A stretch of 64,000 bases of DNA from Lachnospiraceae bacterium (GTDB taxonomy: Bacteria; Bacillota; Clostridia; Lachnospirales; Lachnospiraceae), in assembly GCA_024699045.1 (NCBI GenBank), contig JAILQK010000155.1, positions 1 to 64,000 on the forward strand, written 5' to 3'. The notes beneath the pieces are model-generated. The model searched no databases. It worked only from the letters and a program-made list of their open reading frames with translations, and was not told the origin of the DNA. The position numbers and the translations under genes are program-made. Shown here piece after piece: positions 7,630 to 39,357 of the stretch; within the stretch, counting starts at the first letter, position 1, and each line of letters opens with the position of its first letter.

Positions 7630-8199
7630 ATGGCTGACTCCAGTGTTACAAAAAATGCTTTGGCATCCGCATTAAAGAGGCTGATGAAGAAACAGGGATT
7701 TGAAAAGATCTCTGTTTCCGAGATCTGTGAAGAATGCGGGATGAACCGAAAAAGCTTTTATTATCATTTCAGGGATAAATATGATCTGGTGAACTGGATC
7801 TTCTATGAAGATTTTCTGGGACATCTCCAGACAGCATCATACGAAGACGGGTGGGATGCTCTGAAGGATCTGTGTGAAAGCTTTTTCGCTGACAGGGAAT
7901 TTTATCTGGAAGCTTTGAAGATCGAGGGACAGAATTCGTTCCGGGAGTATGTGATCGACACGGTAAAACCTCTGGCTCTGTATTTTTCCCGGGATGTATT
8001 CAGTGAAGATTCCGAAAAAGACTTTTTTTATACATTCTTTGCCGATGCTTTTTTACATGCCATATCACGATGGCTTCGGGAGAATGACCCGATATCGCCG
8101 GAGGAATTTGTAAAATGCATGCGGTCAGTTCTGGTCAATATTGCATTTAAGACGGCAAAGGGGGATGAAACGCAGGGGCTATCTTCTCCAACACGCTGA
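7630..8199 (+). CDS. TetR/AcrR family transcriptional regulator (DhaS-like)
   Basis: N-terminal HTH 'KISVSEICEECGMNRKSFYYHFRDKYDLVNWIF'. Confidence 0.85.
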   Translation: MADSSVTKNALASALKRLMKKQGFEKISVSEICEECGMNRKSFYYHFRDKYDLVNWIFYEDFLGHLQTASYEDGWDALKDLCESFFADREFYLEALKIEGQNSFREYVIDTVKPLALYFSRDVFSEDSEKDFFYTFFADAFLHAISRWLRENDPISPEEFVKCMRSVLVNIAFKTAKGDETQGLSSPTR

Positions 8200-32252: not shown

Positions 32253-32422
32253 CTGATGAACTCCTCCTCTAAATATTAAAGATTCTCAACATGTGGCACT
32301 TTATTGCGACCACATCATACTTTATAACTGTAAAAGATGGCTTTGTCAAGCATTCTTATAAAAAAGATGATAATTTGGCGGGAGGGTTATCATGTTCTGA
32401 AAAAAAACACGCAAAAGCCGAG

Positions 32423-32452
32423 TTGACATAAAAAGAATATATGTGCTAGAAT
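32423..32452 (+). promoter_or_regulatory. Sigma-70-type promoter for the 32558 gene/ftsEX operon
   Basis: TTGACA (32423-32428), 18-nt spacer, TAGAAT (32447-32452). Confidence 0.75.
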
Positions 32453-32557
32453 ACTATATCTTGTGCAGAGAAGGCGAAATATCGCCAAAACAGTATCAAT
32501 ATTTAGAAAAAAAAGATATAATCATATAAGCAGGTTATCCTGCCCGGATGACGGCAG

Positions 32558-33223
32558 ATGAAAACATACGAAATATTGGGAATCAGGATAAGGGACTATT
32601 CAGTCAGAGAGGCACTTCATAGTACAACGGAGCTGCTTTCGGACAATACGCCCTCCATCGTGTTTTTTTTGACGAGGGGGGTGCTTCTTGGTGCGACCGA
32701 TTCTGAAGAACATAAGGCTTTTATGGAAGAGGGTGCAGACATAACCATGGTGGCATCCTCAGATATTTTTAAGGCGGCAAATGTTTCGGAAAAGGGCAGG
32801 GAAAGGGAGATCGAAAGAAATCTGTATATCAAAGGACTATTAAGGATGTTGTCCCGGGAACACAGAAGGATATATCTTATGACTCAGAACGCCGTGCAGA
32901 TGGAAGAGCTAAAGACCTTACTGGGGACATTCGAAAATGCACTGCAGATAGCCGGATCGTTTGTAAATACCGATGGAGCATCGGTCGAGGATATCACGAA
33001 CGACATTAATACGGTAACGCCTTATGTAGTGTTTGCGGTAATGGACGGCAATGAGGGGATCGACTTTGTCAGTGCCGGTAAGAAATATATGAACACCAGG
33101 CTGATGATCGTGCTTCAGCCGGAGATGTTAAAGGTAAAAGAGGATGGTTCGGTAAAAAAAGGTTTTACGACCAAGCTTTCAGAAAAGCTGTTTACGCGTA
33201 TAGCCGGACGGTATAAGGAGTAA
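32558..33223 (+). CDS. WecG/TagA/CpsF-fold protein, degenerate active site
   Basis: 'ILGIRIRDYSVREALHSTTELL', 'RRIYLMTQNAVQMEELKTLL' and 'ITNDINTVTPYVVFAVMDGNEGIDF' parallel GT26 blocks, but 'PNxxxL' and 'PDGxGV' are not conserved. Confidence 0.55.
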   Translation: MKTYEILGIRIRDYSVREALHSTTELLSDNTPSIVFFLTRGVLLGATDSEEHKAFMEEGADITMVASSDIFKAANVSEKGREREIERNLYIKGLLRMLSREHRRIYLMTQNAVQMEELKTLLGTFENALQIAGSFVNTDGASVEDITNDINTVTPYVVFAVMDGNEGIDFVSAGKKYMNTRLMIVLQPEMLKVKEDGSVKKGFTTKLSEKLFTRIAGRYKE

Positions 33224-33238
33224 AGAGGAGTCGGACAA

Positions 33239-33925
33239 ATGATCTTATTGGAAGATGTGGTAAAAACATACAGTTCGGGTTCACCGGCGCTGAATGGGAT
33301 AAGTCTTAATATTGATGCGGGGGAATTTGTATTTATCGTCGGGGACTCGGGAAGCGGAAAAAGCACCCTTATAAAGCTTTTATTGAGGGAATTAAAGCCC
33401 ACATCGGGACACATTATCGTTAATAATACCGATGTCACACGGTTACGCCACGGGCGGATCCCGAAATACCGCAGGAATATAGGGTGTGTATTTCAGGATT
33501 TCCGTCTCCTCAAGGACAGGAATGTATATGAAAATGTCGCATTTGCGCAAAGAGTGGTCTCGGTCCCCGGAAGAGAGATAAAGAGAAATGTGCCGCAAGT
33601 CCTGTCAACTGTCGGACTGGCTGAAAAATACAGCTCCAAACCGAAGGAGCTCTCCGGAGGAGAACAGCAAAGGGTCGCTGTGGCAAGGGCCATAATAAAT
33701 AAGCCTCCGATACTGCTGGCCGATGAGCCCACCGGTAATCTGGACCCTAAAAATTCATGGGATATAATGAAGCTTCTCGAAAAGATAAATCGAAACGGAA
33801 CTACCGTTCTGGTCGTTACACATAACCGTGAGATAGTGAATGCCATGCAGAAAAGAGTGATCACCATGAAAAAGGGCGTGATCCTTGCGGATCAGGAGAA
33901 GGGAGAATACATAGATGAGGATTAG
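33239..33925 (+). CDS. ftsE: Cell division ATP-binding protein FtsE
   Basis: [44 protein letters not shown]. Confidence 0.96.
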
Positions 33926-34814
33926 CACATTGGGATACACCATGCAGCAGGGTGTAAAATCCATTTTCAGGAACAAAGTATTCTCTTTGGCCACTATAGC
34001 GACGATCGGAGCCTGTATCTTCCTTTTCGGGATCTTTTATTCTGTCGTGGTCAATTTTCAGAACATTATCCATCAGGCAGAGTCCGGCGTGGCCGTGACG
34101 GTCTTTTTTGAAAAGGACATTTCCGATGAAAGGATACAGGAGATCGGAGAGGAGATCAGCATGAGAGCCGAAGTGTCGAGGGTGGTCTTTGTATCCGCAG
34201 AGCAGGCCTGGGCTGATTTTAAGGACGAGTATCTGGGGGAATATGCAGATACCTTCGGTGACGATAATCCTCTTGAGGACGATGCGAACTATGAGGTTTA
34301 TCTGAGCGACGTATCCATGCAGGAGCAGCTGGTCGAATATATCTCCGGACTTCAGGGGGTAAAAGAGATCCACAAATCCGCAAATGTTGCAAATACGTTA
34401 AACGTTGCCAACAACCTTGTAAGCTATGTATCACTTGCGATCATATTTATCCTTTTTGCGGTCTCCATTTTCCTTATCAGCAATACGGTGGCGATAGGGA
34501 TATCCGTAAGGCGTGAAGAGATAGCGATCATGAAGCTTATAGGGGCTACCGATTTTGTGGTACGGTCCCCATTCCTTTTTGAGGGGATCATCCTCGGACT
34601 TATCGGAGCCGCGATTCCTCTTGTGATCATATATTATATATATAACAAGGCTGTAGGTTACGTTATCAAGGAATTTGCGGTGCTGAATTCGATACTTGCT
34701 TTCATTCCCGTGGAGCAGATCTTTTATACGCTGGTCCCTATCGCGTTGATCCTCGGCGTGGGAATAGGATTTCTGGGGAGCGCCATAACCGTTCGCAGAC
34801 ATTTGAGAGTATGA
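33915..34814 (+). CDS. ftsX: Cell division protein FtsX
   Basis: 4-TM FtsX topology; 'TMQQGVKSIFRNKVFSLATIATIGACIFLFG', 'VAIGISVRREEIAIMKLIGAT'. Confidence 0.95.
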   Translation: MRISTLGYTMQQGVKSIFRNKVFSLATIATIGACIFLFGIFYSVVVNFQNIIHQAESGVAVTVFFEKDISDERIQEIGEEISMRAEVSRVVFVSAEQAWADFKDEYLGEYADTFGDDNPLEDDANYEVYLSDVSMQEQLVEYISGLQGVKEIHKSANVANTLNVANNLVSYVSLAIIFILFAVSIFLISNTVAIGISVRREEIAIMKLIGATDFVVRSPFLFEGIILGLIGAAIPLVIIYYIYNKAVGYVIKEFAVLNSILAFIPVEQIFYTLVPIALILGVGIGFLGSAITVRRHLRV

Positions 34815-36190
34815 CAGGATTATTCCGGAAAACAAAATACGGGATCATATTTGTGCTGTGCCTGTTTCTGTGCATGGCACAATTTTCATTCCTGCCCGGG
34901 ACTGTTGCCTATGCGGATGAAGATGAGAATGATGATGGCAATGAGGAAGACAGCGGGGATAACAAAGAAGAAGACAAAAATGAAGAGAATAACAGCGGAA
35001 CAAGCGGTTCCTCTTCAGAGATCGAGGATATAAAACGTCAGATCGAAGAGTCCAAGGAGGCAAAAGAAAAGGCTAACGAGACCAAGCAGCAGCTTGCATC
35101 GGGCATGGCGGATGTACAGCAGGTGATAGGGTCTTTGGAGACGGAAAAGAACAATGTGGTAACATATGTTGCAACGCTGGATGCTGCAATGGAGCAGATA
35201 CAGGACGATCTGGACGCGATCAATGTGTCGATATCCGAAAATGAGGTTCAGATAGAGGATGCCAGAAGAGCGATCGAGAAGGCCGAAGCAGCGTTAGATG
35301 AGGCCGAAAGGGTGAGACAGGAGGAATACGAGAATATCAAGGATCAGGTAAAGTTTATGTACCTGGCAGGCAGATCCACCTTTTTGGAGATACTGGTTAC
35401 CGCCGAGAGTGTGAGCGATCTTTTGAACAGAACGCATTATATTTCGAAGATCATGGATTACGATCGCGAAAAGCTGAATGAGTATGCTGAGGCTGTGCGT
35501 GAGGCCGATGAGGCCAGACAGTTTCTGGAAGAGAATAAGGCGATCCTGGAAGAAAAGCAGGCGGCTCTGGAAGAAAAACAGGCAGAAGCTGAGGGAAAGA
35601 GGGACGATATGTCCACTCTGATCTCTGCAAAAGAAGCGGAGATAGGGCAGTACAATGCCGAAATCGGCAGCAAGGAAGAGCAGATCAAAGAATATGAACA
35701 GATGATAGCTCAGCAGGATGCGGAGATTGCCGCGATAGAGCAGGCGATTAAACAGCAGCAGGCTGCACTTGCAGAAGCAAGCCGAAGGGTGTACGGTGGA
35801 GGAAAGTTTGTATGGCCTGCACCGGGATACACAAGGATATCCGATGATTTCGGAATGCGGATACATCCTACGCTCGGGGTTCAGATGATGCATAACGGTA
35901 TTGATATGGCGGCCCCCACCGGTTCCCCGATACTGGCGGCGGCAGACGGAACCGTAATAGCGGCCTCATATTCCGGTACTATGGGAAACTATATCATGAT
36001 CGACCATGGTTCTGATATAATAACCGTGTATATGCATGCATCCTCGCTTGGGGTATCAGCCGGGCAGGAAGTATCGGCGGGAGACAGGATAGGATCCGTC
36101 GGGTCGACGGGAAGGAGTACCGGACCGCATCTGCATTTCGGAGTAAGAAAAGACGGGTCATATGTCAATCCGTGGTCCTATCTGAAATAA
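34811..36190 (+). CDS. Murein hydrolase activator EnvC-like, coiled coil plus M23 peptidase domain
   Basis: Signal peptide, coiled coil, 'GMRIHPTLGVQMMHNGIDMAAPTGSPILAAADGTV...STGPHLHFGVRKDG'. Confidence 0.92.
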   Translation: MTGLFRKTKYGIIFVLCLFLCMAQFSFLPGTVAYADEDENDDGNEEDSGDNKEEDKNEENNSGTSGSSSEIEDIKRQIEESKEAKEKANETKQQLASGMADVQQVIGSLETEKNNVVTYVATLDAAMEQIQDDLDAINVSISENEVQIEDARRAIEKAEAALDEAERVRQEEYENIKDQVKFMYLAGRSTFLEILVTAESVSDLLNRTHYISKIMDYDREKLNEYAEAVREADEARQFLEENKAILEEKQAALEEKQAEAEGKRDDMSTLISAKEAEIGQYNAEIGSKEEQIKEYEQMIAQQDAEIAAIEQAIKQQQAALAEASRRVYGGGKFVWPAPGYTRISDDFGMRIHPTLGVQMMHNGIDMAAPTGSPILAAADGTVIAASYSGTMGNYIMIDHGSDIITVYMHASSLGVSAGQEVSAGDRIGSVGSTGRSTGPHLHFGVRKDGSYVNPWSYLK

Positions 36191-36223
36191 GGGATGCGAC
36201 CGATCAATAAAAGAGGTGTTTTA

Positions 36224-37477
36224 ATGAACGAAAAAACATGGGAACAGACCGGAAAGGGGCAGTACGAACTAAAGACCTCTCCGTATAGCGGATATAATGA
36301 ACCGGCCGGCAAAAGGGACAAAAAGGGACATTTCATGACTCCTTTCATCCTGGGATTTGCAGCAGGAATACTTCTGGTGCTCGTGATCTACTTTGCTGCG
36401 TTCCGTTTCTCGAATTCATTATCGCTCGCAACCCAGAAAAAGATCGGGCTGCTGGAATCCGTAATAGACCGGTACTATATGGGAGAAAGAGAAGAGCAGT
36501 CCGAGGCGGACGGGATATACAAAGGTATAGTCGGTTCGCTCGGGGATAAATATGCCGGCTATTTTACGAAGGAAGAACTGACCATCTCCAGAGAGGACAG
36601 CGCAGGAGAATTTTCCGGGATAGGCTGTACGATAGGAATGGATCAGGAGCTGGGGGTATGTTTCATCGCTTCAGTTATGGAGGGATATGCGGCGGAAGAA
36701 GCCGGGATACAGGAGGGAGACTATTTTCTCGAGGTAGACGGGGAGGACGCCACAGGATGGTCATCATCGGAGGTCGCGTCTCATGTTAAGGGTAAGACGG
36801 GGACAACCGTAGATCTCAAGATGCTTCGCGGTACCGAGGAGCTGGATTTTACCGTGGAACGGGTCATGGTTGAAGTGGAGACCGTGGAATCAAGAATGGA
36901 GGATGAGAAAGAAAAGATCGGATATATCAGGATCCTTGAATTCGATGAGATAACCGTTTCACAGTTTATTGATGCAAAGAAACAACTTGAAGAAGAGGGA
37001 ATGAAGGCATTGATCCTCGATCTCAGGAGCAATCCCGGAGGACTGGTAGACGCCTGTTCCGATATCGCTTCAGAGATGCTGCCCAAGGGACTGATCGCAT
37101 ATTCCGAGACAAAGGACGGCAGGCGGTTTGAGTGGAAGTCTGACGGAAAGAGCGAGATAGATATTCCCGTAGTGATACTTGTGAATAAAAATACGGCATC
37201 GGCAGCCGAGATCCTTACAGGGGCGATGAAGGATTACGACAAGGCGAAGATCATCGGAACAACGACCTTCGGAAAGGGGATAATACAGAATACATACGGG
37301 CTTGGAGACGGCACAGCGGTCGAATTTACCGTCGGGCAGTATTATCTCCCGAACGGAGAGATGATACATGAAGTAGGGATAGATCCCGACATAGAGGTAG
37401 AGCTTGATGCCGAAGCATATCTTAAGGATGGATCGGATAATCAGCTTGAAGCAGCCCTGAAGGAATTAAAAAAATAG
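36224..37477 (+). CDS. ctpA: S41 family C-terminal processing peptidase
   Basis: PDZ domain plus 'LILDLRSNPGGLVDA', 'VNKNTASAAEILTGAMKDYDKAKIIGTTTFGKGIIQ'. Confidence 0.94.
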   Translation: MNEKTWEQTGKGQYELKTSPYSGYNEPAGKRDKKGHFMTPFILGFAAGILLVLVIYFAAFRFSNSLSLATQKKIGLLESVIDRYYMGEREEQSEADGIYKGIVGSLGDKYAGYFTKEELTISREDSAGEFSGIGCTIGMDQELGVCFIASVMEGYAAEEAGIQEGDYFLEVDGEDATGWSSSEVASHVKGKTGTTVDLKMLRGTEELDFTVERVMVEVETVESRMEDEKEKIGYIRILEFDEITVSQFIDAKKQLEEEGMKALILDLRSNPGGLVDACSDIASEMLPKGLIAYSETKDGRRFEWKSDGKSEIDIPVVILVNKNTASAAEILTGAMKDYDKAKIIGTTTFGKGIIQNTYGLGDGTAVEFTVGQYYLPNGEMIHEVGIDPDIEVELDAEAYLKDGSDNQLEAALKELKK

Positions 37478-37569: not shown

Positions 37570-39357
37570 ATGGAAAGAGAAGAGTTTTTATCTTTATACA
37601 GGCATTCGCTGGCACATGTTCTTGCAAAAGCAGTCATAGAGATCTTTGGAAAAGAGGTTCAGTATGCCATTGGTCCGCAGATAGCCGACGGGGCTTATTA
37701 TGATTTTGTTCTTCCGAGATCAGCCTCGCCCGAGGATTTTGCGGCGATAGAAGAGCGTATGCGCGAAATATTAAAGCGTAAGGAACCCTGGACAAGACGG
37801 GAGATCTCCAAAAAAGAGGCACTGGATCTGTTTCAGGATCAGAAATACAAGAAAGAGATAATAAACGATCTACCCGAAGATGAAACGATAAGCATATATT
37901 ATACAGGGGATGATTACGTTGATCTTTGCCGCGGGCCGCATGTTGAGAATTCAGCAGAGCTCCTTCAGACCGCGTTTAAGGTAAAAGCAGTATCCGCCGC
38001 TTATTGGAGAGGCGATGCCAAAAATGACTCAATGCAGAGGATATATATCTATGCCTTTCCCTCCAAGGATGAATTAAAGAAGCACCTGGCGTTTGTCAAA
38101 GAAGCAGAAGAAAGGGATCATAAAAAGCTTGGCCCCGAACTGCAGCTTTTCATGTTCCATGAATCCGCGCCCGGCATGCCGTACTGGCTTCCCAGAGGAT
38201 GGAGACTGTATCGCGCGCTTGTGGAATACTGGAGAAATATTCACGACAGGAACGGATATCAGGAGATATCCGCACCTGTCATAAACAACAAAAAACTGTG
38301 GCTTATCTCAGGTCACTGGGCGCATTACAAAGACAATATGTTCATCATACCGGGAACGACATGGACTCCTGATGCGGATGACGTTATGGCCGCAAAACCC
38401 ATGAACTGCCCGAATGCGATGCTTACATATGCCAAGACAAACCATTCCTACAGAGAACTTCCCATAAGATATAACGAGCTCGATATGGTACATCGCAAGG
38501 AAAAGAGCGGTGCGCTTAACGGGCTTTTCAGAGTGCAGGCTTTCAGACAGGATGATGACCATACTTTTGTGACCGTTTCGCAGATCGAGGAGGAAATAGA
38601 TAATATCATCTCTATCGCCGACGAGATATATTCAACCTTTGGTATCACATACAGAGCGGAGCTTTCCACGCGCCCGGAGGATTTCATGGGTGATATCGAG
38701 GACTGGAATCAGGCCGAGGCAGCATTAAAACGGATACTTGACAATAAATACGGAGAGGGCGGTTACGAGGTCAACGAGGGAGACGGAGCCTTCTACGGAC
38801 CCAAGATAGATCTTCAGATCAAGGACGCGCTGGGCCGTGAATGGCAGTGCGGCACGATACAGCTTGATTTCCAGCTCCCTCATAATTTTGGGCTTACTTA
38901 TCAGGATCAGACCGGGAAGATGATCCAGCCGGTCGTTATCCACCGGGCGATATTTGGTTCCCTGGAGCGGTTTATCGGCATTCTGATCGAAAACTTCAAG
39001 GGAGCATTTCCCTTCTGGCTCTCACCTTATCAGGTCGGAATAGTTCCCATAAGGGTGGAGCATAATGAATATGCGCTCGAAGTAAAAAAAATCCTTGAGA
39101 ATGCAGGGATCAGAGCGGAATGTGATACGGCCGACAAGAACATGAACGAAAAGATCAAAGAGTACAAAAATCTCAAAGATCCTTATATCATCGTTGTAGG
39201 GGATAAAGAAGCGGCAGACAGAACGGTGTCGATCAATATCCGCGGCGTGAAGCAGCAGCTTCACGGAGTGACGATCGAGAGACTGGTAGCAATGTGCCGG
39301 AAGATGAATGAGGAGCACATGATAGATCTTATAGTCTCCGATGAGGGGAAAGAATAA
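37570..39357 (+). CDS. thrS: Threonyl-tRNA synthetase lacking N-terminal TGS domain
   Basis: Starts directly at editing-domain HSLAH; CRGPH editing motif; class II motifs; MNCPNAM; HRAIFGSLERF. Confidence 0.93.
   Translation: MEREEFLSLYRHSLAHVLAKAVIEIFGKEVQYAIGPQIADGAYYDFVLPRSASPEDFAAIEERMREILKRKEPWTRREISKKEALDLFQDQKYKKEIINDLPEDETISIYYTGDDYVDLCRGPHVENSAELLQTAFKVKAVSAAYWRGDAKNDSMQRIYIYAFPSKDELKKHLAFVKEAEERDHKKLGPELQLFMFHESAPGMPYWLPRGWRLYRALVEYWRNIHDRNGYQEISAPVINNKKLWLISGHWAHYKDNMFIIPGTTWTPDADDVMAAKPMNCPNAMLTYAKTNHSYRELPIRYNELDMVHRKEKSGALNGLFRVQAFRQDDDHTFVTVSQIEEEIDNIISIADEIYSTFGITYRAELSTRPEDFMGDIEDWNQAEAALKRILDNKYGEGGYEVNEGDGAFYGPKIDLQIKDALGREWQCGTIQLDFQLPHNFGLTYQDQTGKMIQPVVIHRAIFGSLERFIGILIENFKGAFPFWLSPYQVGIVPIRVEHNEYALEVKKILENAGIRAECDTADKNMNEKIKEYKNLKDPYIIVVGDKEAADRTVSINIRGVKQQLHGVTIERLVAMCRKMNEEHMIDLIVSDEGKE

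Follow-up and report, generated by a model that had tools for sequence, protein, structure and literature searches.

A degenerate WecG/TagA-like protein encoded ahead of ftsEX in Lachnospiraceae is a putative regulator of an envelope-remodelling operon

The window analysed here is a stretch of 64,000 nt from a Lachnospiraceae bacterium (assembly GCA_024699045.1, contig JAILQK010000155.1, positions 1-64,000, forward strand). It contains an operon whose first gene, an intact open reading frame of 221 codons plus stop at 32558-33223 (+), encodes a degenerate relative of the GT26 (WecG/TagA/CpsF) glycosyltransferases, hereafter pseudoGT. The features of the locus are as follows:

32423-32452, + strand: sigma-70-like promoter, TTGACA-N18-TAGAAT, with TG before the -10 element (consensus match only, 11/12)
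32558-33223, + strand: pseudoGT, heading the operon and encoding a degenerate WecG/TagA/CpsF paralogue of 221 aa (profile, alignment, tree and fold evidence)
32666-32677, + strand: FLTR codons (residues 37-40), replacing TPN(A) of GT26 (TagA T37-P38-N39), with T in place of N39
32747-32764, + strand: MVASSD codons (residues 64-69), replacing VPDGxG of GT26, with A66 in place of the catalytic base D65 of TagA
32807-32809, + strand: E84 codon, aligned to TagA R83, a charge reversal common to most of the subfamily
32999-33010, + strand: N148-D-I-N151 codons, whose two Asn are the sole invariant residues of a 65-member alignment
33029-33058, + strand: VFAVMDGNEG codons (residues 158-167), replacing VGLGxPKQE of GT26; the QE pair is gone in the window's genus
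33239-33925, + strand: ftsE, ABC ATPase (Pfam ABC_tran, 3.1e-38)
33915-34814, + strand: ftsX (Pfam FtsX_ECD, 3.9e-21)
34811-36190, + strand: M23 peptidase with PcsB-type coiled coil, a PcsB/CwlO-like hydrolase (Peptidase_M23, 1.5e-36; CC_PcsB, 1.1e-8)
36194-37477, + strand: S41/PDZ carboxy-terminal processing peptidase, CtpA-like (Pfam Peptidase_S41, 1.2e-52)

The first-pass annotation had proposed this promoter, a start of ftsE 15 bp past the pseudoGT stop, and FtsEX with two peptidases downstream, and this layout is borne out. The promoter carries the extended TG, and a sequence of the scanned length would contain about 2.2 promoter-like matches by chance, most of them weaker; a scan of 32253-33300 revealed no terminator-like site. 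The ftsE start at 33239 is preceded by a Shine-Dalgarno-like AGAGGAG, the four downstream genes were all identified by Pfam, and ftsE is 96-99% identical to that of the sister loci. The window also contains a threonyl-tRNA synthetase gene (37570-39357), a protein that occurs in two divergent forms in the family (L147-L176), both of which are carried by G003 and G107.

Taken alone, the window protein scores E = 0.041 against PF03808 (14.1 bits, under the 27.4-bit cut-off), so that its homology to GT26 becomes significant only when relatives are included; the NCBIfam models TarA and wecG_tagA_cpsF do not match it. Five relatives outside the window's genus, scored singly, reach at most 77.7 bits against TarA (cut-off 350) and 65 against TIGR00696 (cut-off 69), and PF03808 is matched by 62 of the 65 members of the pseudoGT family. 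The window protein is detected at 6.9e-50 with a profile built from 60 family members of other genera and at 2.3e-8 with one built from canonical GT26 proteins; for 2000 shuffled versions of it, the best values were 0.0011 and 0.12, respectively. When the profile of the genus was aligned with canonical GT26 using hhalign, a probability of 96.6 was obtained (E 5.9e-10, 184 columns), and the profile of the 65-member family detects Thermoanaerobacter italicus TagA at 1.3e-33 and its structures 7mpk, 5wb4 and 5wfg at ~1e-33 over residues 2-198. The motif order read in the first-pass annotation is reproduced by these alignments, which place FFLTRGVLL on ATPNAEIV of TagA, VASSDIF on VPDGSGI and FAVMDGNEG on VALGAPKQE. 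The comparison to TagA that it had called for thus revealed similarity by sequence and also by fold: with an AlphaFold model of the window protein, built from six input sequences, the top 14 Foldseek matches were all TagA/TarA (E 5.5e-5 to 3e-3, TM 0.5-0.65), and the next match had an E of 0.026. It should be noted that the pLDDT of this model is only 49.7 (low confidence), and we therefore take the Foldseek result as support and not as proof. Judged by these profile comparisons, the product of 32558-33223 belongs to the GT26 homologous superfamily.

To describe what has been lost, we set 60 degenerate proteins from genera other than the window's against 30 canonical GT26 sequences of the order. 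The residues N39, D65, G66, G86, D88, G163, Q167 and E168 (TagA numbering) and a C-terminal R-A-P...E-W..R block are present in all 30 canonical proteins. Among the 60 degenerate proteins, N39 is retained in three and D65 in two, G66 is replaced by D or E in 54, and position 83 is occupied by E in 43 and by D in six. The C-terminal block RAP..LEWxYR is deleted in the window's genus and in ~56 of the 60 other members, and the QE pair is kept in ~44 of the 60 (~72%). All six proteins of the window's genus have T at position 39 and A at 65, with S and E at positions 66 and 83, and they have lost QE as well. The window protein accordingly lacks the TPN motif, the Asp of PDG, an Arg or Lys at position 83, GxPKQE and the C-terminal appendage, and the activity of TagA is known to depend on T37, D65 and this appendage (PMC6493773). 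The designation "pseudo-glycosyltransferase" given in the first-pass annotation is consequently appropriate, and the identity of the window protein as a pseudoenzyme is, at the level of its sequence, well supported.

In a few members that branch early, such as L092, the alignment to TIGR00696 still extends over almost the full model, from which we infer a stepwise loss; judging from the alignments, it looks as if the pocket residues were lost first, then the appendage and, in the lineage of the window, QE last. Only two of the ~220 residues of the family are invariant (N148 and N151), and a W is common at TagA position 183. Judged by the order of the structural elements, N148 and N151 would be placed where the helix preceding beta-7 ends, probably on the face of the sheet opposite the old active site. 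The retention of QE in most members outside the window's genus makes a residual or new ligand-binding role possible.

Retention of QE, together with the conserved polar residues that have newly appeared where the active site used to be, might also be taken to mean that the protein is a repurposed enzyme, whose altered pocket (D/E66, E83, QE, N148/N151) catalyses another reaction of envelope metabolism, for example with another nucleotide or sugar. This reading seems rather improbable to us: the mean pairwise identity of the family is only ~27%, with just the two invariant residues, the window's genus has neither QE nor an acid at position 66, and the appendage needed for catalysis by TagA is deleted.

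The degenerate proteins form a single clade, set apart from canonical GT26 by a branch with 100/100 support, and the tree indicates a single origin. Local pseudogene decay is ruled out by this single clade and by the open frames without internal stops found in the carriers. Because synonymous sites are saturated and dN/dS is mostly uncomputable, pN was compared with pS; the values for the genus, 0.14-0.18 and ~0.8, respectively, show that the gene is under purifying selection, to a lesser degree than ftsE and ftsX. Across 49 loci, the mean p-distance is 0.73 for the pseudoGT protein, 0.43 for FtsX and 0.28 for FtsE.

The degenerate form was detected in 81 of 200 genomes of the Lachnospiraceae family (80 genera), and the PF03808 scores split into two classes, canonical (E < 1e-46) and degenerate (> 1e-23). 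In a second sample of 196 genomes of the order, all matches at the degenerate level fell within the Lachnospiraceae family. In 70 of the 81 carriers, representing ~70 genera, pseudoGT lies upstream of ftsX on the same strand at 0.9-5 kb (67 from a systematic linkage count plus three more seen linked separately), while none of 33 canonical GT26 genes is linked to ftsX. The remaining copies comprise five at contig ends, two that are unlinked despite a continuing contig (G147 and G157) and four in genomes without an FtsX match. The usual order is pseudoGT-(yitT)-pucR-ftsE-ftsX-pcsB-ctpA, with pucR and yitT identified by Pfam: a PucR-type regulator separates pseudoGT from ftsE in most genera and a YitT membrane protein in some, and pseudoGT was observed to abut ftsE directly only in the window's genus. 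The claim that pseudoGT heads the ftsEX operon stands as far as its position upstream of ftsX and the conserved synteny are concerned.

Conserved as it is, this genomic association is not accompanied by obligate co-occurrence, as pseudoGT is absent from more than half of the sampled genomes, most of which have FtsX. Moreover, four genomes without an FtsX match (G105, G175, G179 and G183) keep pseudoGT together with pucR and ctpA, and the gene is therefore not strictly an FtsEX accessory. Their loci (L057, L091, L084 and L089 in G105, G183, G179 and G175, respectively) look as though the ftsE-ftsX-pcsB segment had been deleted in one piece, and the tree positions imply at least two separate losses of it. 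It could be argued from the presence of pseudoGT in some genomes without FtsEX, and its absence from some with it, that the gene is a passenger with an unrelated cytoplasmic role, merely co-transcribed with ftsEX. We consider this improbable, because the linkage is kept across ~70 genera with little in between beyond yitT, pucR and, in a few genomes, an MsmX-like ATPase. The latter, a sugar-ABC ATPase, lies between yitT and pucR in the deep-branching L087 and L092, ~1.7-2.9 kb past the pseudoGT start; a similar gene is located upstream of pucR in several genomes without pseudoGT (L132, L135, L141-L143).

The PucR-type regulator deserves attention as a possible partner in its own right. The pseudoenzyme might sense a sugar nucleotide or an envelope precursor in the cytoplasm and pass a signal to the adjacent PucR/CdaR-like operon regulator, FtsEX being only co-regulated. 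This would agree with the location of pucR beside pseudoGT or one gene further on in most loci of other genera, with the persistence of the order pseudoGT-pucR-ctpA where FtsEX is gone, and with the retention of QE and of an altered pocket in most members. However, the window's genus has lost pucR from the operon while pseudoGT stays at ftsE, and every one of 20 sampled loci without a neighbouring pseudoGT contains the pucR-ftsE-ftsX core. The correlation between pseudoGT and PucR distances likewise drops to a partial value of 0.05 once FtsX and Ctp are controlled for, and we regard the PucR reading as unlikely, although it is the main rival with respect to the target. The regulator, characterized by an HTH_30 and a GGDEF-like domain and the N-terminus MISNQILQNT, is located directly upstream of ftsE in all 20 sampled loci without a neighbouring pseudoGT (L127-L146). 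In L085, pseudoGT starts at 7986 and pucR lies 839-1927 after it. The only PucR homologue of this type detected in the genome of the window is on another contig (L126 1336-2592; G000 C34:13457-14542), away from ftsEX and next to acetyltransferase-like, anaerobic radical-SAM activase-like and deaminase-like genes. The literature searched contained no paper linking PucR to ftsEX in Lachnospiraceae.

When PucR and Ctp are controlled for, the pseudoGT distances retain a partial rho of 0.55 with those of FtsX. Controlled for threonyl-tRNA synthetase (ThrS), which is a poor species marker with two paralogous forms, so that only 16 genomes of one form were used, rho is 0.69 with FtsE, 0.64 with FtsX, 0.50 with PucR and 0.37 with Ctp; given a reference value of 0.68 between FtsE and FtsX, pseudoGT tracks these two proteins as closely as they track each other. 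These sequence distances favour FtsEX as the partner, though the signal is not fully separable from common descent.

The first-pass annotation had suggested a regulatory link between wall-polymer synthesis and FtsEX. In such a scheme, the paralogue could act allosterically on an active GT26 enzyme, or as its decoy, and so couple wall-polymer initiation to FtsEX. The oligomeric state governs the activity of GT26 enzymes (PMC6493773), and the fold appears to be retained in the paralogue, as far as a low-confidence model can indicate, which would suit such a role. It was found, however, that a canonical GT26 gene is absent from 68 of the 81 pseudoGT carriers and that the two genes do not co-occur above chance (Fisher p 0.29). 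This weakens the proposed link, rules out modulation of an active GT26 enzyme as a general explanation, and makes such a partnership very improbable in our view. The four genomes with pseudoGT, pucR and ctpA but no FtsX match count against the link as well. In L114, L116, L117 and L124, canonical GT26 domains are part of 400-655 aa open frames that extend far beyond the domain itself and are possibly fusions with another envelope-synthesis domain.

We return to FtsEX, which we infer to be the likeliest target. According to the reading that we prefer, and to which we assign a probability of about one half, pseudoGT is a GT26 pseudoenzyme, inherited vertically, whose putative role in the cytoplasm is to regulate the FtsEX/hydrolase operon or to serve as an adaptor for it. 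In the Lachnospiraceae lineage, a WecG/TagA-type glycosyltransferase would have been duplicated long ago, and one copy would have kept the Rossmann-like GT fold, lost the catalytic apparatus for UDP-sugar and polyprenol, and been passed on by vertical descent at the head of the pucR-ftsE-ftsX-pcsB-ctpA operon. As a non-catalytic component of this envelope-remodelling operon, it would most likely contact FtsE/FtsX and thereby determine the timing of M23 hydrolase activation by FtsEX. The probable surfaces for binding a partner or a ligand are the acidic pocket created by substitution (D/E66 and E83, TagA numbering) and the patch with the invariant N148/N151. A more specific version, namely a lineage-specific regulator of an FtsEX-PcsB switch derived from a dead GT26 enzyme, with the Asn pair and the acidic pocket as docking or sensing surface, is offered only tentatively. 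We do not propose membrane binding through a C-terminal amphipathic helix, since the hydrophobic moments are no higher than those of shuffled tails (6% at p<0.05).

Compared with TagA/TarA of T. italicus (PDB 5wb4, 5wfg, 7mpk), the window protein has the same N-terminal Rossmann-like fold and element order over residues 1-198 and shares D60, G132, I150 and N151, but it lacks N39, D65, G66, R83, G86, D88 and the RAP..LEWxYR/arginine appendage and, in the window copy, additionally Q167/E168. The PcsB/CwlO-type FtsEX hydrolase systems of Firmicutes likewise carry genes for a coiled-coil peptidoglycan hydrolase and a Ctp peptidase behind ftsE-ftsX; here, a pseudo-GT26 gene and usually also a PucR-type regulator are placed in front. 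The pseudo-glycosyltransferases VldE and ValL are also GT-fold proteins that no longer make glycosidic bonds, but these are active enzymes of another GT family involved in antibiotic synthesis, whereas the window protein has lost its catalytic positions. GT26 and FtsEX are both already known; a dead GT26 subfamily and a pseudoGT-headed ftsEX operon were not found in the literature searched, which left most subscription journals outside its coverage, and they are apparently new.

In summary, a conserved pseudoenzyme of single origin heads this operon in ~40% of the sampled Lachnospiraceae genera. Many of its members score above the Pfam WecG/TagA cut-off and could be misread as wall-polymer glycosyltransferases, a risk that concerns genomes without any such enzyme. 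The operon governs the cleavage of the cell wall in growth and division, and the finding that its first gene encodes a glycosyltransferase-shaped protein devoid of its catalytic parts suggests that, in many Lachnospiraceae of the gut and rumen, an old enzyme has been put to new use as a regulatory or structural component. It provides a concrete and testable candidate for a regulator of FtsEX hydrolase timing in Firmicutes, and, if this view is true, a dead GT26 regulator would represent a previously undescribed kind of FtsEX control.
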